Source of the DNA: a virus
Reading direction: 5' to 3' (one strand)
Length of the DNA: 64,000 nt
IMG/VR virus record: IMGVR_UViG_3300030419_004471
Coordinates: 124,001 to 188,000 of that record
Position 1 is the first letter of the stretch. Each line of letters starts with the position of its first letter. Shown one piece after another: positions 5,907-55,986 of the stretch. A program made the position numbers and the translations under genes. The notes beneath the pieces were generated by a model. The model was not told the DNA's origin, searched no databases, and saw only the letters and a list, made by a program, of their open reading frames with translations.

Positions 5907-5938
5907 TAAATATACGAAAAAAAATTGAATTATCCAAG
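5907..5938 (-). promoter_or_regulatory. Promoter, -33/-7 class, for metallopeptidase gene
   Basis: On the coding strand: CTTGGAT (5938-5932), 17-nt spacer, TATATTTA (5914-5907). Matches the Bacteroidota -33 TTG and -7 TAnnTTTG form. Start codon is 16-17 nt downstream. Confidence 0.75.
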
Positions 5939-5957
5939 GATTTTGGTGGATTTTTTA

Positions 5958-6575
5958 CTATATTTCTAAGAAATTTGATAAATATCCAGCTATTCTACCT
6001 GCTTTTATTTGGAAATGTTCCCATTCATTTTTTGTCATTTTGTGCTTACGTTTTACATAATCACATCCTAAACATCCTATGAATTTTTCATCTAATGTGA
6101 ATAGAGGAATAACATAAGAAGATTTATCACCAGCAGCAATTCCTGCTTCTCTTAAACCATATGTTTTCCACTTTGAATCTTTGTAATCTGGTATAAAGAT
6201 ACCATTTTTCTTACCAAGATGATTAAATGCATGTGGGTAAAGTGATACGGGAATGTTATTGAATATATTTGCTACTGAAGAAATACCTCTATTTGCTGCT
6301 TCATAGAAGATTGAAAACTTTTGAATTGATTTACCTGTTGGATAATAATTACCACCATTGTGAAACTGAGTAATCCATACTCTACATCCTTTAAATTCTT
6401 CTCTTATCTCTTCAATTTCATCTTGAATTAGATTAGAATCCAACATTACCTGTTTGATTGTATCTTTCTTTTTTGCTAATTGTTTCTTTTGGTGATTTGT
6501 AATTATCAGGTATAATATCGGTCCTACCACACCTGTGATGAATGCCCCAATAAGCTCTATAAGTCCACTTTCCAT
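5958..6575 (-). CDS. Membrane-anchored GAF-like domain protein
   Basis: Residues 5-27 form one transmembrane helix, followed by a basic helical linker and a C-terminal domain from about 60 onward that looks like a GAF sensor fold (CRVWITQFHNGG at the start, SYVIPLF and IGCLGCDYV strands, a closing amphipathic helix). GAF domains bind small molecules or serve as dimerisation platforms. The topology places the domain in the cytoplasm. It is in a tight row with small genes of unknown role. No output domain is present, so if it senses something it must act through a partner. Confidence 0.55.
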   Translation of the reverse strand: MESGLIELIGAFITGVVGPILYLIITNHQKKQLAKKKDTIKQVMLDSNLIQDEIEEIREEFKGCRVWITQFHNGGNYYPTGKSIQKFSIFYEAANRGISSVANIFNNIPVSLYPHAFNHLGKKNGIFIPDYKDSKWKTYGLREAGIAAGDKSSYVIPLFTLDEKFIGCLGCDYVKRKHKMTKNEWEHFQIKAGRIAGYLSNFLEI

Positions 6576-6579
6576 TCTA

Positions 6580-6855
6580 CTAATCTTTTACTTTTAATTC
6601 TGCGTTTTTATATAATCCTGCTACCTTATCGTCCAACTCTTTAGTATATTTTTTCTTTAACGTAGTTAATTTAAGTAATTTTTGCTTAGATTTCTCAGCT
6701 TTCTTAGGGTCTTTATCTTTATATTTTAAATAAATCTGAACTTCAGCTTTCATAGTATCAACAACTTTACCTAAATCTTTAGATATTGTTTTAACACCTC
6801 TGGCTTCTTTTATTACAAATTCTCTTATTTTGTTTATTAGTTCAGAATTATTCAT
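6580..6855 (-). CDS. Hypothetical lysine-rich helical protein
   Basis: A 91-aa, strongly helical protein beginning MNNSELINKIREFVIKEA, about a quarter Lys. I use the ATG at 6855 instead of one at 6882 because the upstream gene ends at 6857, giving a 1-nt gap, and the upstream residues are not compatible with a coupled start. No family recognised; it could be a small structural or DNA-associated protein. Confidence 0.6.
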   Translation of the reverse strand: MNNSELINKIREFVIKEARGVKTISKDLGKVVDTMKAEVQIYLKYKDKDPKKAEKSKQKLLKLTTLKKKYTKELDDKVAGLYKNAELKVKD

Positions 6856-6856
6856 T

Positions 6857-7264
6857 TTAAAATTGTCCTGCTTTCTTAACATCTTCTATTGCTTCTTGTA
6901 ACTCATCTAATGTAACAGGACATTCTAAATCTAATCCTGCTTTAAAACTTTCTTCGTTGATACCATCTTTAAAAATTATTAAAGTTGGTGCCATTCGAAT
7001 TCTATATTCTTTTTTAGCCTTTGGAGCTTTAGCTATATCAACTCTGTAATACTTAACTCCATCTATCTTATCCCAATCAGCGAATGCATTTGCTTCATTA
7101 AATTTAGCCCAAAACTCTACAACTACTATATTTGCCTCATCATCTCCAAACGCTTCCTTATGGTTTATCTTATCTTCAAAATTTGAATCATCAATAAATT
7201 CTTGGCCGAAACTATTAAATCCGCAAACTAAAGATAAGATAAATATGAATAAAAATTTTCTCAT
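6857..7264 (-). CDS. Exported thioredoxin-fold protein lacking the CXXC motif
   Basis: Signal peptide MRKFLFIFILSLVCGFNSFGQ, then a thioredoxin-like fold: VVVEFWAKFNEANAF strand-helix, YYRVDIAKAP, and the cis-Pro region RMAPTLIIFKDG. Where thioredoxins have WCGPC this protein has AKFNEA, so it cannot do dithiol chemistry. The start at 7264 is chosen because it gives a proper signal peptide and because the upstream gene ends at 7275. Probably periplasmic; could be a chaperone-like or binding module. Confidence 0.65.
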   Translation of the reverse strand: MRKFLFIFILSLVCGFNSFGQEFIDDSNFEDKINHKEAFGDDEANIVVVEFWAKFNEANAFADWDKIDGVKYYRVDIAKAPKAKKEYRIRMAPTLIIFKDGINEESFKAGLDLECPVTLDELQEAIEDVKKAGQF

Positions 7265-7274
7265 ATTTGTCCTA

Positions 7275-7607
7275 TCAGTTATTTTTTTGTATTTCATATA
7301 AACGCTCATCGATTTTATCTAACTTTTCCTTAATCTCATCAACATCATCTTGAGTGTCCATAATAGTTTGGCGAATCAGCTCATCCTTCATATCAAACTC
7401 CATTCTTTCGATAACAGGTGTTGGTAACTCTTTCGCCTCTTGAATGTCAGCTTGTAGGGAATACCACATACCAATTAATGTAGCTAGTCCTACAACTACC
7501 ATTCCTATAGTTTTTAAACTTATCGAGAAATCAGATTTTCCATCCCCATCAATATCAATTCCCATTGATGTATCTTCACCTAATTCTCTAGTACCTTTTC
7601 TTGCCAT
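7275..7607 (-). CDS. Small membrane protein with C-terminal coiled coil
   Basis: A 110-aa protein: a soluble N-terminus (GIDIDGDGKSDF, a Ca-binding-loop-like acidic stretch), one transmembrane helix (TIGMVVVGLATLIGMWYSL, about 33-51) and a C-terminal acidic helical part with heptads (VDEIKEKLDKIDERLYEI). Proteins of this design occur in marine T4-type phages near lysis or envelope genes. It could be an inner-membrane spanin or a holin accessory protein, but nothing in the sequence proves that. Confidence 0.6.
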   Translation of the reverse strand: MARKGTRELGEDTSMGIDIDGDGKSDFSISLKTIGMVVVGLATLIGMWYSLQADIQEAKELPTPVIERMEFDMKDELIRQTIMDTQDDVDEIKEKLDKIDERLYEIQKNN

Positions 7608-7627
7608 AATCTTCTTTCTTTAGTCTA

Positions 7628-8857
7628 TTATCTAAATGTATAGTTTATTCCAAATGTTGAATTAAAGAATTTAGTATCCCACATTTTATTGTATTCACCT
7701 TCAGCAAAAACTCCTAAATTCTTACCTATTTTCCAACCAAAGTTGATACCAAATTGATAATCTTCCCATTGTTCACCTTCTGCATCTTGTACCAATCCAC
7801 CTTTACCCCAATTGTTTCTGTTTAAGTAAGAGAAATCTTCATCTCCTTTAACATATTTGTGATATCCTGGTAGATAGTTTGCGTATCCGTGAAACCAAAA
7901 GTTATTCTTATAATGATAGAAATCAGCTCCTAAGATTGGTGATACAACACCGAATGGGTCTATACTATCCCAAATTTCATTATTATATCTGTTAATAAGG
8001 TCTCTGAATACTGTGTTTCTAAAATCTAAATCTGAATGTGCTACGATATTTCCTTGTTCATCTCTCCAAATCCAATCAAATCTTTCATTACCAGTTTCTA
8101 AATCAGTATAAGTTGTTGCGTGGTCTGTGTATCCATACTCGTATCCTAAAGAGTACCAAGGATTAGCTGGATATTCTTCCCCATCAATTATTTGAATTTC
8201 ATTTAACCAAATTTCAATCGGGTTATATCCATATGCTCTAGTGTGAGTTCTATATATTGCTCCAGCTGATAAACTAAATTTCTTACCAATTGGTAATCTA
8301 GCTCTTACTTCTGCTGATTTATATTCGAAATCAAATGCACCTTGGCTTCTTGATTCTAACTTAACAATATGATTTTTACCTGTGTGTCTAATAAAATACC
8401 TAAAGTTATTCCATTCTTCACCTCTAAGTCTTTCCTTTTCAAAGTGAAATAAATATTCAAATCCTTGAACTGCTGATGTTGGTGCGGATAATGCTTGTTG
8501 ACTTTCTCTGTATTGATTACCTGTCCAGAAGTTACCTGGTTTTCTTTCGTATTGAAATCTTCCTAGTTTACGGATACCTATTCCATATCTGTAATCAAAT
8601 GGATAATATTCTGTTACTTCTATAACTCTTGGTATAGCGTACAAATCTCCATCAGCTGGTCTTTCTACAAAGAAATCTTTTCTTGAGTTTTCATATGCAT
8701 TTCTGATATCACCGGCTGCATAAATTGTTCCGTATTTTAAGAAGTCATTATAGAACTCTTTAAATATATTCTTTTTTACTTTCGTTTCTTCTATTTCTTG
8801 GGCATTAACATTAAATGAAAGTAATAAACTTAACATTAATAATAGTAAATTTCTCAT
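7628..8857 (-). CDS. Outer-membrane beta-barrel protein
   Basis: Signal peptide ending FNVNAQ, then about 390 residues of alternating aromatic/polar beta-strands (for example GIGIRKLGRFQYE, FSLSAGAIYRTHT, NLGVFAEGEYNKMW) and a C-terminal strand FGINYTFR with the terminal aromatic residue expected for Bam-dependent insertion. The phage therefore places a barrel in the host outer membrane. Possible roles are receptor masking, superinfection exclusion or channel formation. A GGGAG Shine-Dalgarno site and an inverted repeat (8879-8912) with a TATTTATAG-like box lie upstream. I do not recognise a named family. Confidence 0.7.
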   Translation of the reverse strand: MRNLLLLMLSLLLSFNVNAQEIEETKVKKNIFKEFYNDFLKYGTIYAAGDIRNAYENSRKDFFVERPADGDLYAIPRVIEVTEYYPFDYRYGIGIRKLGRFQYERKPGNFWTGNQYRESQQALSAPTSAVQGFEYLFHFEKERLRGEEWNNFRYFIRHTGKNHIVKLESRSQGAFDFEYKSAEVRARLPIGKKFSLSAGAIYRTHTRAYGYNPIEIWLNEIQIIDGEEYPANPWYSLGYEYGYTDHATTYTDLETGNERFDWIWRDEQGNIVAHSDLDFRNTVFRDLINRYNNEIWDSIDPFGVVSPILGADFYHYKNNFWFHGYANYLPGYHKYVKGDEDFSYLNRNNWGKGGLVQDAEGEQWEDYQFGINFGWKIGKNLGVFAEGEYNKMWDTKFFNSTFGINYTFR

Positions 8858-8878
8858 TTTTTCTCCCTAATTTTATAA

Positions 8879-8912
8879 GGTTATATTTGTATATAAGTAT
8901 TAAAAAATAACC
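8879..8912 (-). repeat. Inverted repeat with 6-bp arms before beta-barrel gene
   Basis: GGTTAT and ATAACC, 22 nt apart, enclosing the TACTTATAT box. The outer TTTGG and inner TATATACAA are like those at 32946-32984. Confidence 0.4.
8891..8899 (-). promoter_or_regulatory. TATTTATAG-like box (beta-barrel gene)
   Basis: TACTTATAT, one variant position (C) and final T, inside the inverted repeat 8879-8912 and 33 nt before the ATG. Confidence 0.4.
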
Positions 8913-8920
8913 AAATCGTG

Positions 8921-9583: not shown

Positions 9584-9585
9584 AC

Positions 9586-9594
9586 CTATAAATA
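9586..9594 (-). promoter_or_regulatory. TATTTATAG box, putative late promoter (PAP2 gene)
   Basis: TATTTATAG fills nine of the eleven bases between the stop at 9595 and the ATG at 9583. Confidence 0.6.
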
Positions 9595-9780: not shown

Positions 9781-9782
9781 AA

Positions 9783-9791
9783 ATATAAATA
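9783..9791 (-). promoter_or_regulatory. TATTTATAG-like box (61-aa gene)
   Basis: TATTTATAT, 2 nt before the GTG start at 9780. Confidence 0.5.
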
Positions 9792-9802
9792 TACTCAGTA
9801 TA

Positions 9803-26022: not shown

Positions 26023-26880
26023 TTAATTCCAAGCCGAACACAATCCTCTTTCTTTAAACTCACACCAATCACATAATCTAGTTTTGTTTGTAAAGTAATC
26101 TATATCCCTATGCTTACCCTCATCATCAAACACAGTTTCAATGAAATTCATAAACCCATTCCAAGCCTTATTAATGGATGGTTTTCCATTAGCTGGAATG
26201 TGAGATGATATACGAGGAATAGGAAAATCATAATTCTCATTTATTTTTCTTTTAAGAATCTGAAACTCTACGTGAACTTTATTTAGAGGTAAATTATACT
26301 TCTCTGCGTAAATCTTTTTGTACAATAAAATTTGTGCGTTTTTTATTGGGTCTCGCTTTTGGTATTTATTCCAACCTCTTGTTGATGTTTTTAAGTCTAT
26401 AATAGTAATTGAGTTATCATATAAATTCCTTATAACAACATCAATAAAACCAAGAAAATTTATATTTGGTTTTACTTTAGCGTTTAAGGGTAGCTCAATA
26501 GCTTCTAACTTTTGATTCTTTTTAGAATACCATTTAGCTAATTTTGTTTTAAAAAACTTTAGTATCTGCCTACCATCCCCAAAAAACTCTTCCAATTCAA
26601 TTTGAGTACAGGGTAATCTATCACCTTGCTTTTCTTTTTCTTTCTTAAACTCTTCAACCAATTTATCTTTTAGTAATAAATCCAAGTCTATTTCCATAGC
26701 TTGTTTCTTTGTTACATTGTACATCACATCCAAAAAATGTTGGATGGTTTCGTGCATAGCCGTACCAAAGATTGTGTGAATGTTACCAGAACTTTCACCT
26801 AATTTATCAATATAGTTTAGTTTGAATTGTTGTGGACATGAACTCCACATATTATATTGTGAGAAAGACACTCTAGCCAT
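26023..26880 (-). CDS. PD-(D/E)XK nuclease, RecB/Cas4-like
   Basis: A 285-aa RecB-type nuclease. N-terminal SFSQYNMWSSCPQQFKLNYID carries the first Cys/Tyr motif, FGTAMHETIQHFL contains the His, GFIDVVIRNL the Asp, IIDLKTSTRGW the DxK catalytic pair, and the end CDWCEFKERGLC holds three Cys, as in the Fe-S or zinc-binding Cas4/AddB-like proteins. Likely processes DNA ends during recombination or replication. Has its own 17-nt spacer promoter (26897-26928). Confidence 0.75.
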   Translation of the reverse strand: MARVSFSQYNMWSSCPQQFKLNYIDKLGESSGNIHTIFGTAMHETIQHFLDVMYNVTKKQAMEIDLDLLLKDKLVEEFKKEKEKQGDRLPCTQIELEEFFGDGRQILKFFKTKLAKWYSKKNQKLEAIELPLNAKVKPNINFLGFIDVVIRNLYDNSITIIDLKTSTRGWNKYQKRDPIKNAQILLYKKIYAEKYNLPLNKVHVEFQILKRKINENYDFPIPRISSHIPANGKPSINKAWNGFMNFIETVFDDEGKHRDIDYFTNKTRLCDWCEFKERGLCSAWN

Positions 26881-26896: not shown

Positions 26897-26928
26897 TAAA
26901 TATACAAAAAATTCCTGAGAAATCCAAA
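26897..26928 (-). promoter_or_regulatory. Promoter, -33/-7 class, for RecB-like nuclease
   Basis: TTTGGAT, 17-nt spacer, TATATTTA on the coding strand. The spacer is nearly the same as in the gp45 promoter (38006-38037), sharing TTCTCAGGAATTTTT. ATG 16 nt downstream. Confidence 0.8.
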
Positions 26929-28666: not shown

Positions 28667-28930
28667 TTATAAATTTTCATTAATACTATTTGTGTACGCT
28701 AGCTCTGATTGCACTCCTACAAATCTATTTATTTCAACTCCATCCTTCTCTATTACTACTGTAGGAACTGACCTAACGTGGTATTTTTGAGCTTCTTCAA
28801 ATTGTTCGTCTATATTAATATACGAAAAATTTACCGAATTTCCAAATTTTTGATTAACTTTTTCTAAAATCGGTTTTAGAGCTTTGCAAGGTCCACACCA
28901 AGGGGCTTCGAATTTTTTAACTTCTATCAT
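28667..28930 (-). CDS. trx: Thioredoxin
   Basis: An 87-aa cytoplasmic thioredoxin with the WCGPC active site at about residues 11-15 (FEAPWCGPCKALKP) and cis-Pro (VRSVPTVVIEKDG). It directly follows nrdA in transcription order and so probably supplies electrons to the ribonucleotide reductase. An AGGAG Shine-Dalgarno is 6 nt before the ATG. Confidence 0.9.
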   Translation of the reverse strand: MIEVKKFEAPWCGPCKALKPILEKVNQKFGNSVNFSYINIDEQFEEAQKYHVRSVPTVVIEKDGVEINRFVGVQSELAYTNSINENL

Positions 28931-36058: not shown

Positions 36059-37279
36059 TTATCTTCCTACTTCTTTTAAATAATTGTTTTTCATTGTTTC
36101 CCAATCCATACCAATAGCATCTATATAAAATAAATGTTCTGGTTTCAATCGATTAGAATCATATAACTTTGTATATCTTTTTATGGCTTGTCTTTTCCAC
36201 CACTTATTAATGTAATCAACTCCCTCTTCAAACTTCTTTTTCATCTTTAAATCTTTTTCTTCAATTTCTGAACGAAGAAATTCTGGTCCGTTTTCATACA
36301 TCATAGCAAGATACACTCCTCTTTTGAATCCGTGATGGTAATCAGCTGCTCTGATACCACATTCTTTAAAGATTCTTCCTAAAATCTTTTGTTTAATACC
36401 ACTAACAGGTCCTTGTCGTTGAGATTCAGCTCCATACATATTAGCTCCGTTTCTTTTTCTTTCTTCTGTAATATGTTCTTTATACCAATCCTCTCTGTTT
36501 TCTTTTAACCATTGGTGCCACGGGTCATAAAATTTATCATCAGGTTTAATTGCTATCTTACCAGCAGATTCCCCTAATGTTTTAAAATGTGGAATACCAT
36601 TATATTGAGAATGAATACCATATAAAGAAGTTGTACCAACACCAATTAGAGTTTGTCCATATTTCTTTTTCCAAAAATCTCTAATTTCAGGTACAGTAGT
36701 CATCATCGCTGTAAGTTTACCACCTAAGAAATTATATCCTAATGGTTGTGTACATACTATCGTAGAAGCGATTGTTGTATAATTTAACTTACCCTTTTTA
36801 AACTTATCTTCTTTATTCCATCCTATGTATTTATCTCTAACACCCATCGATGTAACATCAGATGCTAAAGATATCATACCCAGCAATTTACCACTTTTCT
36901 TATCCTTAACAAAAACTTTAACATTTCTACCAGGGTTAGCTGTCCAACTCATTGTATGAATCATCTTTCTAAGATGTGTCCATTTTGTAGCTTCTTTAGT
37001 ATCTTCTACAATTTCAACGTATGGTTCTAACTCTTCAATTTCTTTTATTGTAAGTTCTTTATCATTAATATCTGTAGGTCTCCATTGCCAATCATAATAA
37101 GATGCTATAGCAGATTTATCTCTAATCATAGAATCTCCTTGCAACTCTACCCACTTTTTATATAAAGTTTGTTCCTCTACAGACATCTGCATAAGATAGT
37201 CCATATTCTCAATGAGCTTTTTCTTCTCATCTTCGAATACAAATTGAGGTTTAGCTGGTTCGGTATCCCAAAAACTCAT
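36059..37279 (-). CDS. DruA-like (DUF4338) protein
   Basis: A 406-aa protein whose middle (about 100-240) matches the DUF4338 domain: LGMISLASDV, Arg148-Asp-Lys-Tyr-Ile-Gly-Trp154, VCTQPLGYNFLGGKL and YNGIPHFKTLGESAG. DUF4338 is the DruA component of the Druantia anti-phage defence system and its core is thought to have a GNAT-like fold. It lies between the clamp and clamp-loader genes with a 1-nt spacing, a place where it would be co-expressed with replication. Function in a phage is unknown; DNA modification is an attractive guess given the two Mom-like genes. Confidence 0.65.
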   Translation of the reverse strand: MSFWDTEPAKPQFVFEDEKKKLIENMDYLMQMSVEEQTLYKKWVELQGDSMIRDKSAIASYYDWQWRPTDINDKELTIKEIEELEPYVEIVEDTKEATKWTHLRKMIHTMSWTANPGRNVKVFVKDKKSGKLLGMISLASDVTSMGVRDKYIGWNKEDKFKKGKLNYTTIASTIVCTQPLGYNFLGGKLTAMMTTVPEIRDFWKKKYGQTLIGVGTTSLYGIHSQYNGIPHFKTLGESAGKIAIKPDDKFYDPWHQWLKENREDWYKEHITEERKRNGANMYGAESQRQGPVSGIKQKILGRIFKECGIRAADYHHGFKRGVYLAMMYENGPEFLRSEIEEKDLKMKKKFEEGVDYINKWWKRQAIKRYTKLYDSNRLKPEHLFYIDAIGMDWETMKNNYLKEVGR

Positions 37280-37974
37280 TACTTAATCTCTACTAAATAA
37301 TAATTTGATGTATAATCTCCGTCCTCAAATGAAAGATGTGCTAATCCTTTAGATGAAATTTTTAATGAAGATGATTTTGAACCTTTGTTAGCTATAAGAA
37401 TAGCTTTTAGATATTTAGCTGAAAATGCTATAGGTTTTATATCATTATCACATTTACAATTAACATCAATACTAATTCTATTTGAATTAATTGATGAATA
37501 ACCTAAAATGATTTCACCTTTGTTTTTTGTACAAGTAAAAGTAAATGTATCTGCATCTGCTAATGCTCCTTTTGATTTGATAAATTTATTTACAAACTCA
37601 TCATCTAATGTTACCTCAGAATCAAATTCAGGTAATGCCTTTAAATCAGGTACAGCAGGTATAACAGATGGAGCAGCTAGCATATATTGTACTTTCGTAC
37701 CCTTATCACTAAATTTAAGAGCTCCTGTTACCTCTTCTACTTTTATTGATGAATCTAATACACTTAACAATCCTCTCAATTGAGAAGTTGTATAAATACC
37801 AAATTCACCACTAGGAAACTCACTATCTTTCACAGATACGTTTCCTAATAATGTCTTATCATCAGAAATCATTCTGACTGACATTGAATCATCAGTAGAG
37901 TTCATCATTACTGATTCAACCTCGCCACCGAGATTATATCGATTTATGAACCCATCTAATTTTAATTTTTCCAT
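37279..37974 (-). CDS. Sliding clamp, gp45-like
   Basis: A 231-aa protein with the fold and size of a T4 gp45 clamp (228 aa): repeated beta motifs, SMSVRMISDDKTLLGNV, and KYLKAILIANKGSKSSSLKIS near the end. It precedes the DruA-like and loader genes and has a strong promoter at 38006-38037 plus an AGGA site. Confers processivity on PolB. Confidence 0.85.
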   Translation of the reverse strand: MEKLKLDGFINRYNLGGEVESVMMNSTDDSMSVRMISDDKTLLGNVSVKDSEFPSGEFGIYTTSQLRGLLSVLDSSIKVEEVTGALKFSDKGTKVQYMLAAPSVIPAVPDLKALPEFDSEVTLDDEFVNKFIKSKGALADADTFTFTCTKNKGEIILGYSSINSNRISIDVNCKCDNDIKPIAFSAKYLKAILIANKGSKSSSLKISSKGLAHLSFEDGDYTSNYYLVEIK

Positions 37975-38005: not shown

Positions 38006-38037
38006 CAAATATACGAAAAATTCCTGAGAAATCCAAA
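38006..38037 (-). promoter_or_regulatory. Promoter, -33/-7 class, for sliding clamp
   Basis: TTTGGAT, 17-nt spacer, TATATTTG, a perfect -7 box. About 31 nt leader with an AGGA site before the clamp ATG. Confidence 0.85.
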
Positions 38038-40456: not shown

Positions 40457-41284
40457 TTATTTGTTAAACAAATCATCAAATGCAGCCGCAACATCATCAG
40501 TTTTCTTAGATGTTTTTGGTTTATCATCAGTATCAAATGGTAAATCATCAACTTCTTTTTCTGATTTAACCTCTTTGTTTGATAATGTTTCCTCAGCTAC
40601 TGAAGGTTCACCATCTTCATTTTTATCTGAAGTTGGATTTAACCATCCTTCTAATACTGCTTTTAATTCATCATAAGATAATTCTGAATATAAATCAGTA
40701 ATTTCAGTTTGAGTTTCTAAAAATTTAGTAACATCTTCAGCTTTATCAGATAATGCACTTTGATTTGGTTTAACTCTAATAGTTGTAACAGGATATGAAG
40801 TTCCTGCTTCTTCGGCAGATTGGTATTCTATAGTAATATCTCTACCCGTTTTAGGGTCTGTTATATCACCATAATCTGGGTCTGCTATATATCCAAGAAT
40901 TTCTTGATATACAGTTTTACCGAATCCCCAAAATTTGATTCCTTCTCCTTCTTGTCCTCTCACTAAAATAGGAACGAAAGTTCTTAATTTCGGCTCCATC
41001 TGCTTAGCAGCTTTCCAATCTTCCTTATCACCCATTCTTTTCAATCTATCAGCAAACTCAACTATAGGGTCAGGTCTACCAAATGATTGTGGTGAGAGAT
41101 AAGTTTTATTATTAATGTTGTAGTGAAAATACAATTCGATGAAAGGATTATCTTTTTCGAATTTGTAGGGAACGATTCTGACTTGATGTTTACCAGGTGT
41201 TGGTTTCCATAGATTGTCAGACTTCTTTTGTGTGTTTTGTAGTTTGTTCAGTCTACCTCTGATTGCGTCAATATTAATTGCCAT
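40457..41284 (-). CDS. Single-stranded DNA-binding protein, gp32-like
   Basis: A 275-aa protein with the gp32 pattern: a lysine-rich N-terminus, the core KHQVRIVPYKFEKDNPFIELYFHYN, and an acidic C-terminal tail ending in DDVAAAFDDLFNK that in gp32 recruits partners. It is missing the four zinc ligands in a clear order, so may be a zinc-less variant. AAAGGAG lies 6 nt before the ATG, suggesting high expression. Confidence 0.85.
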   Translation of the reverse strand: MAINIDAIRGRLNKLQNTQKKSDNLWKPTPGKHQVRIVPYKFEKDNPFIELYFHYNINNKTYLSPQSFGRPDPIVEFADRLKRMGDKEDWKAAKQMEPKLRTFVPILVRGQEGEGIKFWGFGKTVYQEILGYIADPDYGDITDPKTGRDITIEYQSAEEAGTSYPVTTIRVKPNQSALSDKAEDVTKFLETQTEITDLYSELSYDELKAVLEGWLNPTSDKNEDGEPSVAEETLSNKEVKSEKEVDDLPFDTDDKPKTSKKTDDVAAAFDDLFNK

Positions 41285-41415: not shown

Positions 41416-41760
41416 CTATTTTGCCCACTTTTTTCGGTTAACAATTTGAGAGATAACACCATAGACTGAAAGGTCTTGATATGTATCTTCTATTGCTTCA
41501 CCAACCTCATCAGGTTGACCTTTTACAACCAATTGTTTTAACCTCTGAATCTTATCGTTTTTTCTAAACCAAAGACCAGTAAGCGCAACGTTAATATCAT
41601 CCGATGATTCCAATACTGAACCTACTGATATATTATCAGGTCCATAATTTCTTTGTTTCTTACAAAATGTATCGTACATCTCATCTAATATTTTTTTAAA
41701 TTCTTGAGTTGTTGCTGGAAATTTATCCTCACAATACTCAATCGCAGTTTGTTTTTTCAT
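41416..41760 (-). CDS. Nmad1-like (DUF1599) protein
   Basis: A 114-aa all-alpha protein matching the DUF1599 family, named nucleotide modification associated domain 1 (Nmad1). Key patches are KKQRNYGPDNIS, WFRKNDKIQRLKQLV and GEAIEDTYQDLSVYGVI; the E-D pair in the last is the likely metal site. The family resembles MazG-type nucleotide hydrolases and is often associated with phage base-modification systems. It has its own promoter (41781-41812) directly abutting the polymerase stop codon. Confidence 0.75.
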   Translation of the reverse strand: MKKQTAIEYCEDKFPATTQEFKKILDEMYDTFCKKQRNYGPDNISVGSVLESSDDINVALTGLWFRKNDKIQRLKQLVVKGQPDEVGEAIEDTYQDLSVYGVISQIVNRKKWAK

Positions 41761-41780: not shown

Positions 41781-41812
41781 CTAATATACAAAAAATTTTT
41801 CACATTTCCAAA
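41781..41812 (-). promoter_or_regulatory. Promoter, -33/-7 class, for Nmad1-like gene
   Basis: TTTGGAA, 17-nt spacer, TATATTAG. The -33 box directly abuts the DNA polymerase stop codon at 41813. Confidence 0.75.
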
Positions 41813-44326
41813 TTAAAATGAAAAAAACTTTTCAGCTGTTTTTGTTGAGGATAAAACCTCACCCCATTTCATAGCCCCATAAAAATCCTCTAACTTCTTT
41901 AAAAGTTCTCTTTCAAAGATTTTATCATAATCAATATAGGTCTTTACTAAATCCATAATTTCCTTTGGGTCATCATATCCTTTGAATGCTACTCCATCTA
42001 ATCCCATTGGATTTTGTTTAAGATACACCCATTTAACCTTATCACCATTTTTCATAGGTTCATATTTCATCTCACATTTAAAATGAGATAATAGTTGATT
42101 AAATGCTATAGCTGCTTTTACGTGAGCTGGTGTGCCTGATACAAATTGGAACATTCTGATTTGTTTACCCTTTGGAAGATATTTTGTTAAATTCTTTACA
42201 GATGTATTTTTTGCAATATCTACAACATTCATCTGAGATAAATTATTTTTGAAATCATAAATCTTATCAGTAAGTTCAGTTTCCGTTTTACCTTTTAGAA
42301 TATCAATTAGAACTTCACTCATAAACTTTCTAAATGCCGCTGGATAAGATGACCTAACAACATCTAAGCCCTTTACATCTAATTTATTAACAGATACACC
42401 ATTATCAGATATAATCCATTGTGCGTATCGTTTTTTAGCTATCCAAATACCTGATTTAGAAACATATTCTTTTTTAATCTCAAATCTATGTTTATCAATA
42501 TTGAAAATTCTTTTTGCAAGTATATCATAAAAATCATTTAGATAATCTTGCATTTCTCCTGCTATTCCATTTACGAAACCAGCGATATCATCATCAGAAT
42601 TATCTCTCCAAGTTGGGTTTCTACTATCAAGTAAGGGAGTAGCACTAAAAAAAACGGAATCAGTGTCAATGTATATATTACTATCCAAATCGGGATTACC
42701 CAATTCTTTATTGTACCTGATGTTAGCCATGTCAGCAGTTGACTTAATAACTGTCTGTCCTGTCGTGGTAACAGCGGTAGCATTATCAACATCATAAAAC
42801 CTAAAGGCAGGAAGGCCAAGCACCCCATATAAAGAATTAAGTAGAATTTTTTGTACCAATTGACGTTTTTTATACCATTCATATTTTTCATTATCTCCGC
42901 TTTTTCCATATTGTTTCATTTTATTTTTGAACTCAACTCTTTGATTAAACCAAATATCTAAGATATCAGGTATACAACCAACAGTATCAGTTCTATATAA
43001 TACACCATTAGATGCAACTGAAAATTTTGAATTATCTAAATACTTTTTAAGATTTTCTTTTGTAATCGTATCTTCACCGATTGTATAAGTATCCTTACCA
43101 CCCTTTACAAACTCATTCGCATCCCAATCATTAATCTTACCAATCTTAGTTTCTGGTGAGATATTAATACTCATAATAATAGATGGATATAGAGAAGTTA
43201 AATCTAAATCATAAATCCATTCATATTTTCCAACGATAGGTGCTTTTACATATGCTCCGATAAACTTCTCCTCATTGTTATCTCTTAATGCTTGCATTCT
43301 CTCCTGTCTATCAGCTGGTTTATTTGGTGCTACGATACCTTTTCTTTTCAAATAACATAACAATGCTCCTTCTAAGTATTTTGATGAATAAACAAAATCT
43401 TCGTATGGAACGTGACCTGCATGACAAATACCTCTTGCCGTATCGATGAATTGTAACTTCTTATCCATATCAACTACCAACTCAACATCCACTAAGTTAT
43501 ACTCAATAAACTTCTCTATATCATCTCTAAATAATTGGTCTAAGTTTCCTTGATATTCTACCTTACCTCTACCTAACTCTTTTGATGCAATACTATCTAA
43601 ACGATAATTGTCTAATTCTGTATAAGTAAAGTTTTTGTAAAGTGCTAAATAATCTAAATAAGATACACCAGCCATAAAGAATCTCTTACGATAAGGTGAC
43701 CAGAAACATTCACCGATTGGTGATAATCTATTTGCGTTTCTTTTACCTATAACATTTTTTATTCTATTATAAAGATATGGTGTATCAAAGTAATCTATAT
43801 TCCATCCAGTAACAATAGTTGGATTAATATATTCATATAGTTCTAAATATTTTTCTAATAATTCTGCTTCACTTCTAAATGGTAGTACAATAGCTTTATC
43901 AGTTTTCTTATTTGATAAAACATTATCTTTATCTAAAACCAAAACATAATATTGATTGGTAGCTGAATCATGCAATGCTATAGAAGTAATTTCATTCTTA
44001 GCTTCTTGCATATCAGGTAAACCTGTTTCCATCTCTACCTCAATATCATATGTAAGAGTTATATGCCCTTCTGATGGTAAATCCGAATCAGTATATGTAT
44101 CTACTAAAACTCTAGTCGTTTCTGCAACATCTGATTCAAAAAGATTAGGATTATCTTTATTGAATTTATATATCTTAGTTAACCTATCTCCATACAAAGA
44201 TACACACTCACCATTTTCTGCTTTTTCATATGCATATCTTGTATAAGGGAAAGTTCTGTAACCTAATTTATCATCCCATAAGTGTATGAGATTCTTCTGT
44301 CTTTGGTAATATACGTTTTGGTACAT
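41813..44326 (-). CDS. Family B DNA polymerase, gp43-like
   Basis: An 837-aa replicative polymerase with proofreading. Exo I Asp94/Glu96 (YDIEVE), exo II Asn177-Ile-Asp (GWNIDYFD), exo III YNLVD at 276-280; motif A DLDLTSLYPSII with Asp373/Asp375; motif B KILLNSLYG; motif C YIDTDSVFF. Length is near T4 gp43 (898). Its start overlaps the stop of the glycosyltransferase gene upstream. Confidence 0.95.
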   Translation of the reverse strand: MYQNVYYQRQKNLIHLWDDKLGYRTFPYTRYAYEKAENGECVSLYGDRLTKIYKFNKDNPNLFESDVAETTRVLVDTYTDSDLPSEGHITLTYDIEVEMETGLPDMQEAKNEITSIALHDSATNQYYVLVLDKDNVLSNKKTDKAIVLPFRSEAELLEKYLELYEYINPTIVTGWNIDYFDTPYLYNRIKNVIGKRNANRLSPIGECFWSPYRKRFFMAGVSYLDYLALYKNFTYTELDNYRLDSIASKELGRGKVEYQGNLDQLFRDDIEKFIEYNLVDVELVVDMDKKLQFIDTARGICHAGHVPYEDFVYSSKYLEGALLCYLKRKGIVAPNKPADRQERMQALRDNNEEKFIGAYVKAPIVGKYEWIYDLDLTSLYPSIIMSINISPETKIGKINDWDANEFVKGGKDTYTIGEDTITKENLKKYLDNSKFSVASNGVLYRTDTVGCIPDILDIWFNQRVEFKNKMKQYGKSGDNEKYEWYKKRQLVQKILLNSLYGVLGLPAFRFYDVDNATAVTTTGQTVIKSTADMANIRYNKELGNPDLDSNIYIDTDSVFFSATPLLDSRNPTWRDNSDDDIAGFVNGIAGEMQDYLNDFYDILAKRIFNIDKHRFEIKKEYVSKSGIWIAKKRYAQWIISDNGVSVNKLDVKGLDVVRSSYPAAFRKFMSEVLIDILKGKTETELTDKIYDFKNNLSQMNVVDIAKNTSVKNLTKYLPKGKQIRMFQFVSGTPAHVKAAIAFNQLLSHFKCEMKYEPMKNGDKVKWVYLKQNPMGLDGVAFKGYDDPKEIMDLVKTYIDYDKIFERELLKKLEDFYGAMKWGEVLSSTKTAEKFFSF

Positions 44327-45465: not shown

Positions 45466-45972
45466 TTAGTGTATTTGGATTCCATTCTCATATATTTCTT
45501 TAGTTTGTAGGTGAGCTGCTAATCTTGGGTCTTTACCTTTATTCTTCTTCTTAAATTGTTTTTTTAGTTTTGGTAAAAGTAAATTATAAACAGTATCTCC
45601 ATCCAATTTCCATATCTCTGCTATTGGATTGCTTGGGTCTGTAGTAAATCTAGCAATATAATGGTTTTTATATTTTTTAATTTTTTCTTTTTTTAAATAA
45701 TCATTTTGTTCTTTCCAAGTATTAAATACGGAAATTCCAGAATATGCAGCTTTTATTTTATCAGCTGTTGTTGATTTATATTCACAATCTCCATCGGAGT
45801 CTATCCCATCAGCTCCACTCAATGTTTCCGCCACTTTATGACCAAGTTTAATTGCTATCAAAATCTCTCTACTTCGTGCATAAGAAAATGGGTCTCCCCA
45901 ATTTCCTTCTTTACAAGCCTCCATCATAAGATTCCAAGCTTTTGAATATTTTTGTTCTGGTGTTATACGCAT
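45466..45972 (-). CDS. PD-(D/E)XK-type endonuclease-like protein
   Basis: A 168-aa protein with ILIAIKLGHKVAETLSGADG and a DGDCEYKSTTADK segment whose E-x-K, with the preceding Asp, is a PD-(D/E)XK nuclease signature. Such compact enzymes cut specific or structured DNA, and it resembles small restriction-type nucleases. It has a 17-nt-spacer promoter (45992-46023). Cleavage of host or unmodified competitor DNA is one possibility. Confidence 0.5.
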   Translation of the reverse strand: MRITPEQKYSKAWNLMMEACKEGNWGDPFSYARSREILIAIKLGHKVAETLSGADGIDSDGDCEYKSTTADKIKAAYSGISVFNTWKEQNDYLKKEKIKKYKNHYIARFTTDPSNPIAEIWKLDGDTVYNLLLPKLKKQFKKKNKGKDPRLAAHLQTKEIYENGIQIH

Positions 45973-45991: not shown

Positions 45992-46023
45992 CTAATATAC
46001 GAAATTATTTTGAATTATCCAAG
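45992..46023 (-). promoter_or_regulatory. Promoter, -33/-7 class, for PD-(D/E)XK gene
   Basis: CTTGGAT, 17-nt spacer, TATATTAG. Leader of about 19 nt to the ATG at 45972; would also transcribe the glycosyltransferase and PolB genes. Confidence 0.75.
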
Positions 46024-48534: not shown

Positions 48535-48537
48535 TCC

Positions 48538-49170: not shown

Positions 49171-49194
49171 AATCTATCTTTACTTGTAATCACT

Positions 49195-49214: not shown

Positions 49215-49219
49215 TTTAT

Positions 49220-50458: not shown

Positions 50459-50470
50459 ATACTATATATA

Positions 50471-51544: not shown

Positions 51545-51547
51545 ACC

Positions 51548-52825
51548 TTAAACTTTCGAATAATCTTTACCAAAGCTCATTCTAGTCGGAAATCCAAAAC
51601 TTTCAATAGTTGATTGAACATCCATTAACCATTGAACATCTTTTGGAGCTTCTTCCGCAAGTTCAAATAAGAATGAATCATATGTATATAAAATCGGTAA
51701 GGGTAAACTCTTTTCCTTCAGCTTTTTCATAACCTCAATATTAAATTCAGTTTCAGTCGCTTGAAGTAGATAATTGAAGTACTTTTGTCCAGTCGGTTGT
51801 TCTATCCAACCTATAGGTATTCTTCTACCTTTTGGGGTTTTGATATAACCATTCTTTATAGCTTCTTCTTGCATCTTTCTAATAAATCTATCAACTTTAT
51901 CAAAGAATGGGATTTTTCTATCTTCATCAGTTACACCACCATAAAGTATTTTAAATGTTCTTCCTTTTGAATCATCATAGGAACATCCATATTGGTCTGC
52001 TAACCATTGGTGAACGGATGTATCGGGTAATTTATACTTAATCATTTTAGCAATAATCCTAACGTGATATGCATCATAATCGAATTGTACAAACTTTTTA
52101 CCTTTTGGGGGAATGAATATCTCTCTACTACCATCACTTTTATTAAGAGCTGAATAATTAATACCCAAATGCCTGTTGGATGGTCTGCTTGTTATTGTAT
52201 ATGGATTGTATTCTGTAAATGTTCGAGAGAACCAAAGTGATTTCTTATTATCTGGCCATCTATCAAGAAATTTTTCCCTATCGACCTGAATCCCCTTTTG
52301 TTCGATTTCTGAAAGAATAGGTATCATAGTATCATCAATCCACGAATTTGTTGATGGAATTAGTAATTGTTGTCTTAATTCATCTAAAATATCCTTTATA
52401 ACCTCTATAAACTTCATTATAGGGATACTTTTACCTAAACTATCTCTTATACCCAAACGAGTGTAAAAGTTCGTTAAATCCTCTATTTTCTCTCCATAAG
52501 GATATAGTTTGTTATTTTCAAAGAAAAGATTTGATTGTATATCCTTAGTATTCTTTATATTTAACTTAGTTTGTAGTAGCCCTTTCTTATTCCATACCCA
52601 TTTTTCTTTTTTTGATTTTGATAAATCTATTTCTAATTTTTCACAATCATTATGATTAAATGGTAAAATAAAATGTAAATTTTCAAATGCTACATATAAA
52701 AAGGATATATCAGAAGTCATTGGATGACGCTCTAAATCCTCCCAAATAGGCATAATTAATGAAGTTTCATTATTCCAATATTCGAGAAATTGTTCTTTTT
52801 CACTATGTGACTCAACAATAATCAT
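51548..52825 (-). CDS. Second DNA polymerase, family A palm domain
   Basis: A 425-aa PolA-like protein. The polymerase motifs are: thumb/fingers TSRPSNRHL at 212-220, motif A QFDYDAYHVRIIA with Asp249, motif B Lys287-x3-Phe291-x3-Tyr295-Gly, LQATETEFN and motif C YTYDSFLFE with Asp383. The two catalytic Asp remain, but the steric-gate Glu (E710 in E. coli) is His254 and motif C has Ser instead of Glu. The N-terminal 150 residues look like a degenerate proofreading domain. Thus the phage has both family A and family B polymerases. Its ATG lies 4 nt after the -7 box. Confidence 0.75.
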   Translation of the reverse strand: MIIVESHSEKEQFLEYWNNETSLIMPIWEDLERHPMTSDISFLYVAFENLHFILPFNHNDCEKLEIDLSKSKKEKWVWNKKGLLQTKLNIKNTKDIQSNLFFENNKLYPYGEKIEDLTNFYTRLGIRDSLGKSIPIMKFIEVIKDILDELRQQLLIPSTNSWIDDTMIPILSEIEQKGIQVDREKFLDRWPDNKKSLWFSRTFTEYNPYTITSRPSNRHLGINYSALNKSDGSREIFIPPKGKKFVQFDYDAYHVRIIAKMIKYKLPDTSVHQWLADQYGCSYDDSKGRTFKILYGGVTDEDRKIPFFDKVDRFIRKMQEEAIKNGYIKTPKGRRIPIGWIEQPTGQKYFNYLLQATETEFNIEVMKKLKEKSLPLPILYTYDSFLFELAEEAPKDVQWLMDVQSTIESFGFPTRMSFGKDYSKV

Positions 52826-52829
52826 TGTA

Positions 52830-52861
52830 CAAATATACGAAAAATATTTTAATTTTCCAAA
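52830..52861 (-). promoter_or_regulatory. Promoter, -33/-7 class, for family A polymerase
   Basis: TTTGGAA, 17-nt spacer, TATATTTG. Only TACA lies between the -7 box and the ATG, so the transcript may start at the ATG. Confidence 0.8.
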
Positions 52862-53274
52862 TCTTTTTGAGATATTTTGATAAGTGGGAATATAATTCCA
52901 ACTGTTTTTCTCATTTTAGAATAATTGAAGAAGAATCTTATAGGATATTCTTTTAATGGTTTTACTGTTGCTATAGCAAATGGTTTAGTATCAGCGTGTC
53001 CACCAATAATAATACCCCCACCTAAACTAAATTGTTCGAAATGATATTGTGAATTAACCATAACCTTTCCTTTGTTTAGATTTTCTATTGGAGTCATATA
53101 AGCAATCCCAACTGATACTATTGTATCATACCTTTGATTTAAAGATATTCCAATCATATCGTCTCCTACATTAAGTGCTCTTCCAGTCATAACTCCTACA
53201 GTTGTTTGTGCAAATGTAGTAGTTGATAGCAATAATAATAAAATTATTGCAATTATAATTTTAAAAGTTCTCAT
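52849..53274 (-). CDS. Exported small beta-rich protein
   Basis: Signal peptide (FKIIIAIILLLLLSTTTFAQ), then about 115 residues of alternating beta-strands, with GVMTGRALNVGDDMIGIS and SLGGGIIIGGHADTKPFA. It may be a small outer-membrane or periplasmic protein. It overlaps the UvsE stop by 4 nt. No family recognised. Confidence 0.6.
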   Translation of the reverse strand: MRTFKIIIAIILLLLLSTTTFAQTTVGVMTGRALNVGDDMIGISLNQRYDTIVSVGIAYMTPIENLNKGKVMVNSQYHFEQFSLGGGIIIGGHADTKPFAIATVKPLKEYPIRFFFNYSKMRKTVGIIFPLIKISQKDLEN

Positions 53275-54170
53275 TTTATAAATGGTAATATTGATAATTC
53301 TTTTGCTTTAGATTCCACCATAACATCCACATCATTACCATAAGTATTTGGTAAAGTATCAATATAATCCGAATGTGCTTGTGGTTTAAGTTTTTCGTTA
53401 CCTTCGTGTAATGATTTAGATTCTGAATAGTGAACAATTGGTTTGATACCTTTAGGCCAAGTAGATATTGCTAACTCTAAAGCTTCTTGCTCTGATAAAT
53501 CACCTGTACAAAATTTGTGGTGATGATAATCAAATACAATAGGGATACCGATTCTTTCGTGTATGTACATCAAATCTTTTACTGAGTACATAGATGCTTT
53601 ATCATCGTTTTCTACAGTCAATCTAGTCTGAACTGATTCTGGTAATCTTTCGAAGTTTTTACAAAACCTATCCATAGCGGATATCTTATCACCATAAACA
53701 CCATTACAATGAATATTGATTTTGTTATAAGGTGAACGTTCTAAACCAATCATATCGAAAACTTCGCCATGTATCCGTAAATCAGTAATAGTTTTTTCTA
53801 CAACACTTTCTCGTGGTGAAACCAATACATTGAATGGACCTGGATGTGAAGTCAAACGTAATCCGTTGTTTTTTGCATAAAACCCACAACCAGCCAATAA
53901 TGTTTTGATTCTTAGGTATTGTGGTAAATCTTCAAATTTGTATTCAGATGCCCAAGGAAAGAACTCTGATGATATTCTGAAACATTTGATTCCATTCTTT
54001 ACATTCCATCTAAGTATCCTACCTAAATCAGCTGCGTTTAACATACCCAACTCACCAGCATAATCCAAACCTCTTTCTTTAAAGGTTCTTTTTATCATAC
54101 TACGATTAGTTGTTATTTTTGGTTTTTGACTAGATAAAGTCATATTGATGCAAGCGTATCCTAAATTCAT
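53271..54170 (-). CDS. uvsE: UV damage endonuclease
   Basis: A 299-aa TIM-barrel UvdE-type repair enzyme. Typical elements: LGYACINMTLSS at the start, FRISSEFFPWAS, SHPGPFNVL with a metal His, NIHCNGVYGDK, ENDDK and DYHHHKFC. The family cuts 5' of photoproducts and is well known in phages of light-exposed waters. It has a strong promoter (54191-54222). Confidence 0.9.
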   Translation of the reverse strand: MNLGYACINMTLSSQKPKITTNRSMIKRTFKERGLDYAGELGMLNAADLGRILRWNVKNGIKCFRISSEFFPWASEYKFEDLPQYLRIKTLLAGCGFYAKNNGLRLTSHPGPFNVLVSPRESVVEKTITDLRIHGEVFDMIGLERSPYNKINIHCNGVYGDKISAMDRFCKNFERLPESVQTRLTVENDDKASMYSVKDLMYIHERIGIPIVFDYHHHKFCTGDLSEQEALELAISTWPKGIKPIVHYSESKSLHEGNEKLKPQAHSDYIDTLPNTYGNDVDVMVESKAKELSILPFIK

Positions 54171-54190
54171 ATATTATTATTTGTGTTATA

Positions 54191-54222
54191 CAAATATACG
54201 AAAAATTATTGAAATATCCAAG
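54191..54222 (-). promoter_or_regulatory. Promoter, -33/-7 class, for uvsE
   Basis: CTTGGAT, 17-nt spacer, TATATTTG. About 20 nt leader to the ATG. Confidence 0.8.
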
Positions 54223-54239
54223 GAAAAAGTGAATTATTT

Positions 54240-54629
54240 TTAAAGTTTTTTAGAATATGTGTGAAGTGATTCATTTTGAATTTTAATCCAATCTTCTATA
54301 TTTACTTTAATACCCAATTCATTAGCGAATAGTAATCCTTTTTTCCAAGCGTTGATTTCGTTAATATATTGGTAGAATTTAAACTTTTTAGGTTCTTTAT
54401 CCTCATCTATAGTTTTAAAATAATTATCTTTATCAGTTTGAAGAAAATGTCCTACTTCGTGTAAAAGAGAATATAATCCGTTTTTTTCTAAATTGTGATT
54501 ATGGTGAATAAATATCTTTTTATTCTTATGCCCCATAAAAGCAGTGATTTGTCCAAGTAATACATCGATTCCAAATTTCTCCTTGAGATAATCAGAAACT
54601 TTTTTAAATTGTTTAGGGTATTTTTTCAT
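54240..54629 (-). CDS. Zinc metallopeptidase-like protein (HEVGH)
   Basis: A 129-aa protein with LLHEVGHFLQTDKD, a zincin HExxH, and an INEINAWKKGLLFANEL third-ligand Glu region. Resembles the other zincin-type gene at 5500-5889 in size and HExxH, but the sequences differ elsewhere. The start overlaps the PIG-L stop by 17 nt. Substrate unknown. Confidence 0.6.
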   Translation of the reverse strand: MKKYPKQFKKVSDYLKEKFGIDVLLGQITAFMGHKNKKIFIHHNHNLEKNGLYSLLHEVGHFLQTDKDNYFKTIDEDKEPKKFKFYQYINEINAWKKGLLFANELGIKVNIEDWIKIQNESLHTYSKKL

Positions 54630-55134
54630 ATTTTACTATTCGTTCACAATCCCACCTAAACCATCTTGTTACCTGTTTTTGAGATGGATAACATTCTTTG
54701 AGTATATTACCTTTTAATTTTTTTGTATCTTCATCAAGTGGTTGTTTATAACAAGTATCAAATACCCATAATTTTTCAGGGCATAACCTACTCATTACAT
54801 TATGAGTTCCAATATGTCTATAATGACCATATTCACCACCTTGATTATGTGTTACTACTTTTTCCCAATTCCTTTCGTTCAAAACTCGTTCCAAACGAGG
54901 AATCAAAATCGATTCATTATATGCTGTGGAAGATTTGTAAGGTTCTCCATCCCAATGTTCCCATTTCTCTACTCCCAACATTTCCATCGCTTTGATGAAT
55001 TCTTTATGTCTTATTAAGTGGTTTCCATAATCTAATACAACCACTTTGTATTCATTTGGATGTTTAATTAACTCTCCACCACCAAATAGTGTCTCATCAT
55101 CTGGATGAGCAACTACCATTAATTTGTTAATCAC
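54613..55134 (-). CDS. PIG-L/LmbE-family deacetylase
   Basis: A 173-aa PIG-L protein with the metal-binding AHPDDETLFGGGE motif at about 9-21 and a distal GHYRHIGTHN with the His pair. The family removes the acetyl group from N-acetylglucosamine derivatives. The start is GTG at 55134, 3 nt after the -7 box; an internal ATG at 55119 is an alternative. It may act on a surface glycan or a nucleotide-linked sugar, as the phage has a large glycan island. Confidence 0.78.
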   Translation of the reverse strand: MINKLMVVAHPDDETLFGGGELIKHPNEYKVVVLDYGNHLIRHKEFIKAMEMLGVEKWEHWDGEPYKSSTAYNESILIPRLERVLNERNWEKVVTHNQGGEYGHYRHIGTHNVMSRLCPEKLWVFDTCYKQPLDEDTKKLKGNILKECYPSQKQVTRWFRWDCERIVKYEKIP

Positions 55135-55137
55135 ATC

Positions 55138-55169
55138 TAAATATAGACAATTTTTAGGAAAAATCCAAG
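55138..55169 (-). promoter_or_regulatory. Promoter, -33/-7 class, for PIG-L gene
   Basis: CTTGGAT, 17-nt spacer, TATATTTA. GTG start lies 3 nt downstream; ATG at 55119 is the alternative start. Confidence 0.75.
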
Positions 55170-55175
55170 GAAAAT

Positions 55176-55931
55176 TTAAGATATTTTTGCAGAACCTACA
55201 TCAATTGGTTCTCTTTTCATATGATTTCCTTTAGCGAAGTTTGCACCTTCTTTGATATAACCAGTTAAGAATGCTCTTCTGAATCTTTTTGAAGTGTTTG
55301 GTTCTGAACCGTGTACTACATTTGAATGAAGTAATGCAACCTGTCCTTTCCTTAGATACCCATCTATATGTGGAAAATTATGGTCATCTGGTAATACACA
55401 AGGTTTTCCTCTTTCGTTCCTCCAATTCTTAGGATTTGAACCAGCTCTTTCTTCATCTACTTCTATTGGTAATCTACCTAAGTGATGAGAACCTTCCAAA
55501 TACCAAACAGAACCATTGTTAGGGTCGTGATTATCAAGTGCAATAGAAACATTAACTATTTCATTTGCATTACATTGTGTATAGAATATGTTTTGATGTT
55601 GGTCTCTTCCTAATTGACCTGGTGGTTTGAAGTATGCCCAAGTTTGTACTCCAAATATTTTAGAATTCATCAGAAACTCACACGCTTCTATAATCTTAGG
55701 ATGTTTCATTAAACCAGTTAGAACCTTTGATTCTTTGTGTGGATACATATATGGGTCATATTCTCCCCATTCACCTTCTGTATCATTTTCTTGTCTTTTA
55801 ACTCTGACTCTTTCTAATTCATCTCCTATAGCATCAGCTTCTGATTCTGTTAAGAGGTTTAAAATAGATACTCCTTTGTATCTCCAGTCAAATTGTAATT
55901 GTTGTTTTTCTAATTCGGTAAGATAACTCAT
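55176..55931 (-). CDS. PhyH-family Fe(II)/2-oxoglutarate oxygenase
   Basis: A 251-aa phytanoyl-CoA dioxygenase-like protein. The jelly-roll core has DQHQNIFYTQ (112-114), VSIALDNHDPNNGSVWYLEGSHH and a distal His207 in HSNVVHGSEPNTS followed by Arg216/218. The usual H-x-D metal pair is His112-x-Asn114, so Asp has been replaced by Asn. Other known halogenase-like enzymes replace Asp by Ala/Gly; an Asn could still bind metal. Substrate unknown. Confidence 0.7.
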   Translation of the reverse strand: MSYLTELEKQQLQFDWRYKGVSILNLLTESEADAIGDELERVRVKRQENDTEGEWGEYDPYMYPHKESKVLTGLMKHPKIIEACEFLMNSKIFGVQTWAYFKPPGQLGRDQHQNIFYTQCNANEIVNVSIALDNHDPNNGSVWYLEGSHHLGRLPIEVDEERAGSNPKNWRNERGKPCVLPDDHNFPHIDGYLRKGQVALLHSNVVHGSEPNTSKRFRRAFLTGYIKEGANFAKGNHMKREPIDVGSAKIS

Positions 55932-55954
55932 ATAACTTTAATTTATGTTGTATA

Positions 55955-55986
55955 TGTATATATATTAGTTTTTTGAATATTCCAAT
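55955..55986 (-). promoter_or_regulatory. Promoter, -33/-7 class (weaker -7), for PhyH gene
   Basis: ATTGGAA, 17-nt spacer, TATATACA. The -7 box departs from TATATTTG at the last three positions, but the spacing is the same. Leader 23 nt. Confidence 0.6.

Follow-up and report, generated by a model that had tools for sequence, protein, structure and literature searches.

A putative non-late promoter with an extended motif and a fixed spacer in a T4-like phage genome and its relatives

Background

Promoters of Bacteroidota are poorly understood beyond the –7 box. In Flavobacterium johnsoniae, host promoters combine the box TAHHTTTG with a weak –33 element and AT-rich signals near –28 and –18 (PMC6847099). 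Early promoters of phage T4, which are read by the host RNA polymerase, contain more and better-matched elements than host promoters, and the MotA box of T4, TGCTTtA, is located 12±1 from the –10 box (PMC2988021). Here we analyze a promoter-like motif, TTGGAW-N17-TATATT, in a 64-kb window (bases 124001–188000; 31% GC) of the 213,601-base IMG/VR virus record IMGVR_UViG_3300030419_004471; an inspection of the letters alone, referred to below as the sequence-only reading, had noticed it in nine intergenic gaps. The motif probably marks strong early or middle, i.e. non-structural, promoters which are read by the host holoenzyme with a housekeeping-type sigma factor. Compared with host promoters, the phage form appears exaggerated, and the same can be said of T4 early promoters in Escherichia coli. 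Genes are our own calls of open reading frames (ORFs), and all results are sequence-based.

A long motif with an invariant spacer

In the complete record, exact TTGGA[AT]-N17-TATATT occurs 20 times on the coding strand and once on the other strand, and is absent from the reversed control. A scan with a matrix built from the nine initial sites, as suggested by the sequence-only reading, returned 24 coding-strand sites at scores >18, none antisense, and a mean of 0 in 20 shuffles; this threshold was the only clean level, with substantial antisense counts at scores of 8–12. Intergenic location holds for 22 of the 24 sites, 14 of which lie outside the window. The site list is far beyond chance. 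Eight of the nine gaps contain the motif exactly, on the minus (coding) strand, whereas the one at 55955 fails.

The full motif is longer than first described: TTGGAW is followed by ATnTSAAA within the spacer, by TTTCG, and by TATATT[T/A][G/A]. The consensus of this phage, tCCTTGGATaTcTCa..aaTtTTTCGTATATTt, contains about 37 bits; in promoter numbering, TS is located at –26/–25 and CG at –14/–13. In 2.04 Mb of related sequences, fetched by protein similarity and not by motif, a spacer of 17 was counted 180 times, compared with 1–26 times for any other length. In 105 distinct sites of relatives, matched at TTGGAW and TATATT only and numbered from TTG, we found T at +9 in 89%, C or G at +10 in 66%, A or G at +11 in 98%, TTT at +18 to +20 in 90–96%, C at +21 in 81%, and G at +22 in 88%. 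Beyond the –7 box, the best-conserved parts of the motif are the –33 side and the spacer element ATnTSAAA, which was initially overlooked.

The motif agrees with promoters of the Bacteroidota housekeeping sigma (sigma-ABfr type; –33 TTTG, –7 TAnnTTTG) in both boxes. In 130 distinct orthologous sites chosen by matrix score, TATATT is conserved to 95–100% per position and followed by T in 69% and then by G in 74%, the last two positions of the –7 box deviating in about a quarter to a third of the sites; TTG of the –33 box is present in about 95% and extended to TTGGAW. Likeness extends to the distance of the –7 box from the genes and to AT-rich signals. Host promoters, however, have a weak –33 box and neither TTGGA nor the TS element, and position –5 of the phage sites is A in about a quarter.

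Across the clade, orthologous genes tend to keep their sites. Nine genes of this phage have a site and at least five orthologues; the site is kept in 54–100% of the orthologues of eight of them and in 20% of those of the ninth. Among 63 control genes, sites precede 89 of 1891 orthologues, mostly in four genes which seem to have a promoter of their own in the relatives.

A separate signal upstream of structural genes

Structural genes, located at 1–64 kb and 180–213 kb of the record, are preceded by TATATTTATA-like signals which consist of a –7 part only and lack TTGGA. There are 22 such signals on the coding strand versus 5 antisense and 2–8 in shuffles; 19 of the 22 lie close upstream of a start, and seven are located in the middle region. 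One of the late-type signals in the window, TAT[AT]TTTATA at 63870..63879 (minus strand), is upstream of gene 63576–63836.

The signal is probably read by a gp55-like late sigma factor, for which a 243-aa protein encoded at 64691–65422 of the record (L004:6191–6922) and conserved in the clade is a candidate. Orthologues from two relatives show weak, below-cut-off matches to Sigma70_r2 (E 0.004–0.01), and the matches to its structural model (predicted local distance difference test score 73, predicted template modelling score 0.44) are mostly sigma factors at E 0.01 or worse; the protein of this phage itself had no match among PHROG and PDB sequences. In the records searched, no sigma domain scored above the Pfam cut-off, and an ordinary phage-encoded sigma was rejected, the own record having no r4 or r4_2 matches. 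T4 late promoters (TATAAATA, gp55) are comparable in that a –10-only signal of structural genes occurs together with an encoded region-2-like candidate, but the signal sequence differs, and the sigma assignment is weak here.

Because of strand bias, intergenic position, fixed spacing, conservation before orthologous genes and the presence of a separate late class, the interpretation of the motif as a shared non-late promoter is well supported. The sequence-only reading had called it a shared early/middle promoter; as to early versus middle timing, we infer it from gene content only.

Two subclasses, one with a dyad at the predicted start site

The dyad TTTAC-N3-GTAAA directly follows the TATA sequence, perfectly in 6 and near-perfectly in 1 of 22 sites of this record. 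Among 169 relatives it is perfect in 27 and found in none at one mismatch; because of this lack of intermediates, the dyad sites are a discrete promoter class, termed subclass A. Subclasses A and B have their –33 to –7 core in common. Genes behind dyad sites in the own record are mostly small ORFs without family assignment. An A-rich stretch, AAAAATAATTCACTTTTTCC, accompanies many sites and is not confined to those with the dyad; judged by eye, an UP-like A-rich element (AAAAATAATT...TTTTCC) is present at about half of the 22 sites. The subset which combines A-tract and dyad may comprise early promoters of greater strength that include an operator or an element of the start site. The dyad (window 5898–5910, and five perfect and one near-perfect site elsewhere in the record) is located where transcription is predicted to start and is a possible operator.

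The dyads also bear on whether the whole motif could be an operator or other DNA-binding site that merely overlaps ordinary promoters. Besides the true dyad which subclass A has at its start site, near-dyads such as TTGGATTTATCCAA in some contigs would fit such a function. We nevertheless consider it very improbable: the motif keeps a constant register of 17 with TATATT, as in a promoter, and the column which must be C for a TTGGA-N4-TCCAA dyad is A or G across the sites. A dimer site of that form was rejected on the same ground, the required C being A or G in most sites.

Distribution among viruses

The strict pattern TTGGATNNNTCNNNNNNNTTTCGTATATT was found in at least 116 IMG/VR stretches versus 18 stretches in 257 Gb of bacterial genomes, and 105 of the 116 viral loci among the matches listed have a protein in common with the phage analyzed here. 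A plasmid search for the motif gave nothing useful. BLAST with the 39-nt consensus matched the crAss-like phage cr108_1 (E 2e-7 and 1e-8), Kehishuvirus and Kolpuevirus (Bacteroides cellulosilyticus), Microviridae, Chryseobacterium phages MA9V-1/2, and Tenacibaculum and Flavobacterium phages, and phages of other phyla at E 0.6 or worse. With a 35-nt query lacking the –33 box, almost only phages of Bacteroidota or of the gut were matched at E up to 1, plus one Acholeplasma virus.

Such unrelated phages were then scanned with the matrix, shuffle means being 0–0.1. The initial 50 kb of cr108_1 contain five sites (0 in shuffles), and Kehishuvirus has a single one. Three sites were detected in 40 kb of the Chryseobacterium jumbo phage MA9V-1 and two in a 40-kb part of an uncultured phage of 642 kb. 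Of the four Microviridae tested (genomes of ~6 kb), which presumably infect Bacteroidota, three have one site each. Tenacibaculum phage pT24 and a Flavobacterium phage were at or near shuffle level and not counted as carriers. While ATnTSAAA and TATATTTG are constant in the unrelated phages, their –33 boxes vary (TTGGAT, TTGTAT, TTCCAT in MA9V-1, TTTTTT).

The closest annotated phage by polymerase, Mel-JY01 (53% identity), has 16 sites reading CTTGCATACGTC...TTTCGTATATTTG with equal spacing and TTGCAT at –33, an approximate count which stems from a seeded expectation-maximization run, one shuffle of which reached half its information. Mel-JY01 (PP395634.1, L387–L396) is annotated as a Microcystis phage, yet its polymerase is closest to that of the Bacteroidota-type phage studied here and its promoters contain TATATTTG. 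The recorded host may be wrong, e.g. due to a non-axenic culture.

This distribution has to be reconciled with a phage activator which, in a role like that of MotA, would bind TTGGAW and/or the spacer element and bring host RNA polymerase to middle promoters. The uniformity and phage enrichment of the motif, the –33 boxes differing between phage lineages, and the replication genes among those served speak for such a factor, and T4 middle promoters (MotA box plus –10; AsiA/MotA) likewise serve replication genes. But TTGGAW lies at 17 bp here, not a MotA box centred at –30 and 12±1 bp from –10, and the MotA C-terminal domain (PF09158) had no match in eight records, a search which did not include the MotA N-terminal domain and AsiA. 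The architecture moreover recurs in host genes and in unrelated phages, including Microviridae of ~6 kb with little room for an activator, and, given the common core of subclasses A and B, the factor would also be required for genes that are likely early. We regard an activator as unlikely. A regulator candidate, the 185-aa gene at 77716–78273, was dismissed, as it codes for an LPD29 polyvalent-protein domain. For the 114-aa gene adjoining gp32, nothing was found in support of a gp33-like identity, which had been considered at first.

Occurrence in host genomes and probable recognition by the host polymerase

The claim that the phage promoters are more uniform than those of hosts was borne out: across Bacteroidota hosts, counts of the extended motif do not rise above background, and the general host promoters retrieved from two hosts lack TTGGA. 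An exception is part of one order, in which 21 of 78 genomes contain up to 15 copies each, with near-zero reversed controls. Genes behind these sites, named by reading of the sequences and not by family search, include fabD-like, accB/C-like and PolX-like genes, and operons of extracytoplasmic function (ECF) sigma and anti-sigma factors. In genomes G042, G355, G365, G367 and G390, which belong to one sub-clade of Bacteroidota, the motif defines a small class of the host's own genes with TTGGAAATnTSR...CGTATATT promoters, two ECF sigma/anti-sigma operons being located in G367. In Chryseobacterium potabilaquae (L127, L131, L136, L142), four copies of one motif-bearing sequence precede a transposase-like ORF; they are near contig ends and look like an insertion sequence.

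Promoters of ECF sigma factors have a GGAAC-like –35 box, CGT or TC at –10, and about 16-nt spacing. An alternative host sigma, of ECF or other type, might read the TTGGAA...CGTATATT class and be borrowed by the phage. GGAW and CG-TA are indeed present in the motif, but GGAA and CGT are about 19 apart, counted from the first G, compared with a distance of about 21–22 in ECF promoters. The small size of the host-clade class, its two ECF operons in one genome and the often missing TTTG end would suit such a sigma, and in F. psychrophilum, ECF promoters are recognizable by CGT in the –10 box (SM6 promoters; PMC9723704). Most phage sites, however, keep the G at the end of TATATT[T/A]G, as in the housekeeping box, and unrelated phages of many hosts would need an identical sigma, which makes borrowing of an alternative sigma quite unlikely.

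The sequence-only reading had left the choice between host sigma and an activator reading the –33 side; the evidence now leans to the host holoenzyme, which is favoured because the architecture is common to host genes and to phages too small to accommodate a regulator. The –7 box TATATT[T/A][G/A] is a form of the known Bacteroidota box TAnnTTTG, and TTGGAW would supply the –33 contact. ATnTSAAA (about –29 to –22) and TTTCG (–17 to –13) may, in register, provide extra contacts or favour a suitable DNA shape and would thereby fix the spacer at 17. Occurrence in unrelated phages and in host genes suggests that the promoters would be active immediately after infection with unmodified host polymerase. 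T4 early promoters (UP/–35/TGn/–10, sigma70) are similar in having extra conserved positions and an A-rich part upstream, for which the UP-like stretches seen here are a possible counterpart. The phage described here differs in its Bacteroidota –7 box, TTGGAW at –33, ATnTSAAA as a conserved spacer element, and, at a subset of sites, the dyad at the start site.

More tentatively, since we would put it at somewhat below an even chance, ATnTSAAA may be an undescribed core element read by Bacteroidota RNA polymerase, either by sigma or by a host accessory factor, on which tailed phages and Microviridae of this phylum have converged to outcompete host promoters. Judged on the literature that could be read, the spacer element appears to be undescribed; a search for papers on phage promoters of Bacteroidota, outside which most subscription literature fell, found none. 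The Bacteroides phage promoter BfP1E6 is reported to be strong and constitutive.

Several observations weigh against recognition by the housekeeping holoenzyme of the host. Among Bacteroidota hosts, the extended motif is found in 2 of 297 genomes and a looser form in 13 of 396, both counts including the seed genome, and a form comprising spacer and –7 box in 4 of 396; expectation maximization on upstream regions of two hosts retrieved TAnnTTTG without TTGGA or the spacer element, and an analysis anchored on TAnnTTTG in two hosts gave no TTGGA either. The host may thus not use the extended motif widely. Host-clade sites often have TATATTNA in place of TTTG, a difference that might point to another sigma. 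What unrelated phages have in common is the spacer element and the –7 box to a greater degree than the –33 box, and a phage factor that escaped detection may act within the clade.

Promoters and genes in the window

All sites described below are on the minus strand, which carries practically all genes of the window, and are given in window coordinates. Four promoters precede genes with a match to a DNA-metabolism family: TTGGAT-N17-TATATTTG at 54191..54221, with UP-like AAAAATAATTCACTTTTTCC upstream, serves an endonuclease gene (53271–54170; site in 27/29 orthologues), TTGGAA-N17-TATATTTG at 52830..52860 a gene of a DNA-polymerase-like PHROG (51548–52825; 13/24), TTGGAT-N17-TATATTTG at 38006..38036 the sliding clamp gene (37279–37974; 20/21), and TTGGAT-N17-TATATTTA at 26897..26927 an exonuclease gene (26023–26880; 12/15). 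The last also reads TATATTTATA and thus doubles as a late-type signal. An ORF between the clamp and clamp-loader genes (36059–37279) matches DruA (Pfam, E 2e-20).

TTGGAT-N17-TATATTAG at 45992..46022, again with UP-like sequence upstream, and TTGGAA-N17-TATATTAG at 41781..41811 have first genes to which no family was assigned (45466–45972 and 41416–41760, respectively; site of the latter in 63/84 orthologues). The DNA polymerase gene (41813–44326) is further downstream of the former promoter and its first gene, and the gene of a gp32-like single-stranded DNA-binding protein (40457–41284) comes after the first gene of the latter. TTGGAT-N17-TATATTTA at 55138..55168, without CG before TATATT, has a PIG-L-like gene (54613–55134) downstream. 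The subclass A promoter TTGGAT-N17-TATATTTA at 5907..5937 precedes a weakly SprT-like gene (5500–5889; 24/31 orthologues), and its operator-like dyad TTTAC-TAT-GTAAA (5898..5910) extends over the predicted start site and the terminal part of the –7 box. An additional site, TTGGAA-N17-TATATTAA at 28815..28845, was absent from the initial list and lies within a short thioredoxin-like ORF (28667–28930).

The site at 55955..55985 was rejected on matrix score, position and orthologues: it has no CG-TATATT and scores –5.6 with a matrix of the remaining sites, its TTGGA falls on the final codons of the ORF located upstream (55965–56321), and 0 of 18 orthologous upstream regions contain the site, most keeping TAATATATATA instead. 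The assertion that eight of nine sites precede replication, repair or DNA-processing genes was overstated, as a DNA-metabolism family match exists for four of the nine first genes, i.e. those for exonuclease, clamp, polymerase-like protein and endonuclease; the remaining ones code for a PIG-L deacetylase, a PhyH dioxygenase, the weakly SprT-like protein, and unassigned proteins.

The record has its genes on one strand and is, judged by these genes, a T4-like phage genome: families of the T4-type replisome (DNA polymerase B, gp32, sliding clamp, clamp loader, exonuclease, together with ribonucleotide reductase, RNR) and structural families (terminase, portal, baseplate wedge, tail fibre) were matched. 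The phage probably infects bacteria of the phylum Bacteroidota, an assignment which stops at the phylum. To assign the host, the gp55-like gene was sought in 108 genomes from the order to which G367 belongs; none was found, a result which is uninformative on the host.

Implications

The long promoter shared by these phages leads to a concrete hypothesis on extra polymerase-DNA contacts in Bacteroidota, and its sites are candidate strong promoter parts for Bacteroidota genetics. The motif is a marker for phages of Bacteroidota in metagenomes, which may call the recorded host of Mel-JY01 into question, and in a T4-like clade that is abundant but uncultivated, it allows early/middle genes to be told from late ones.

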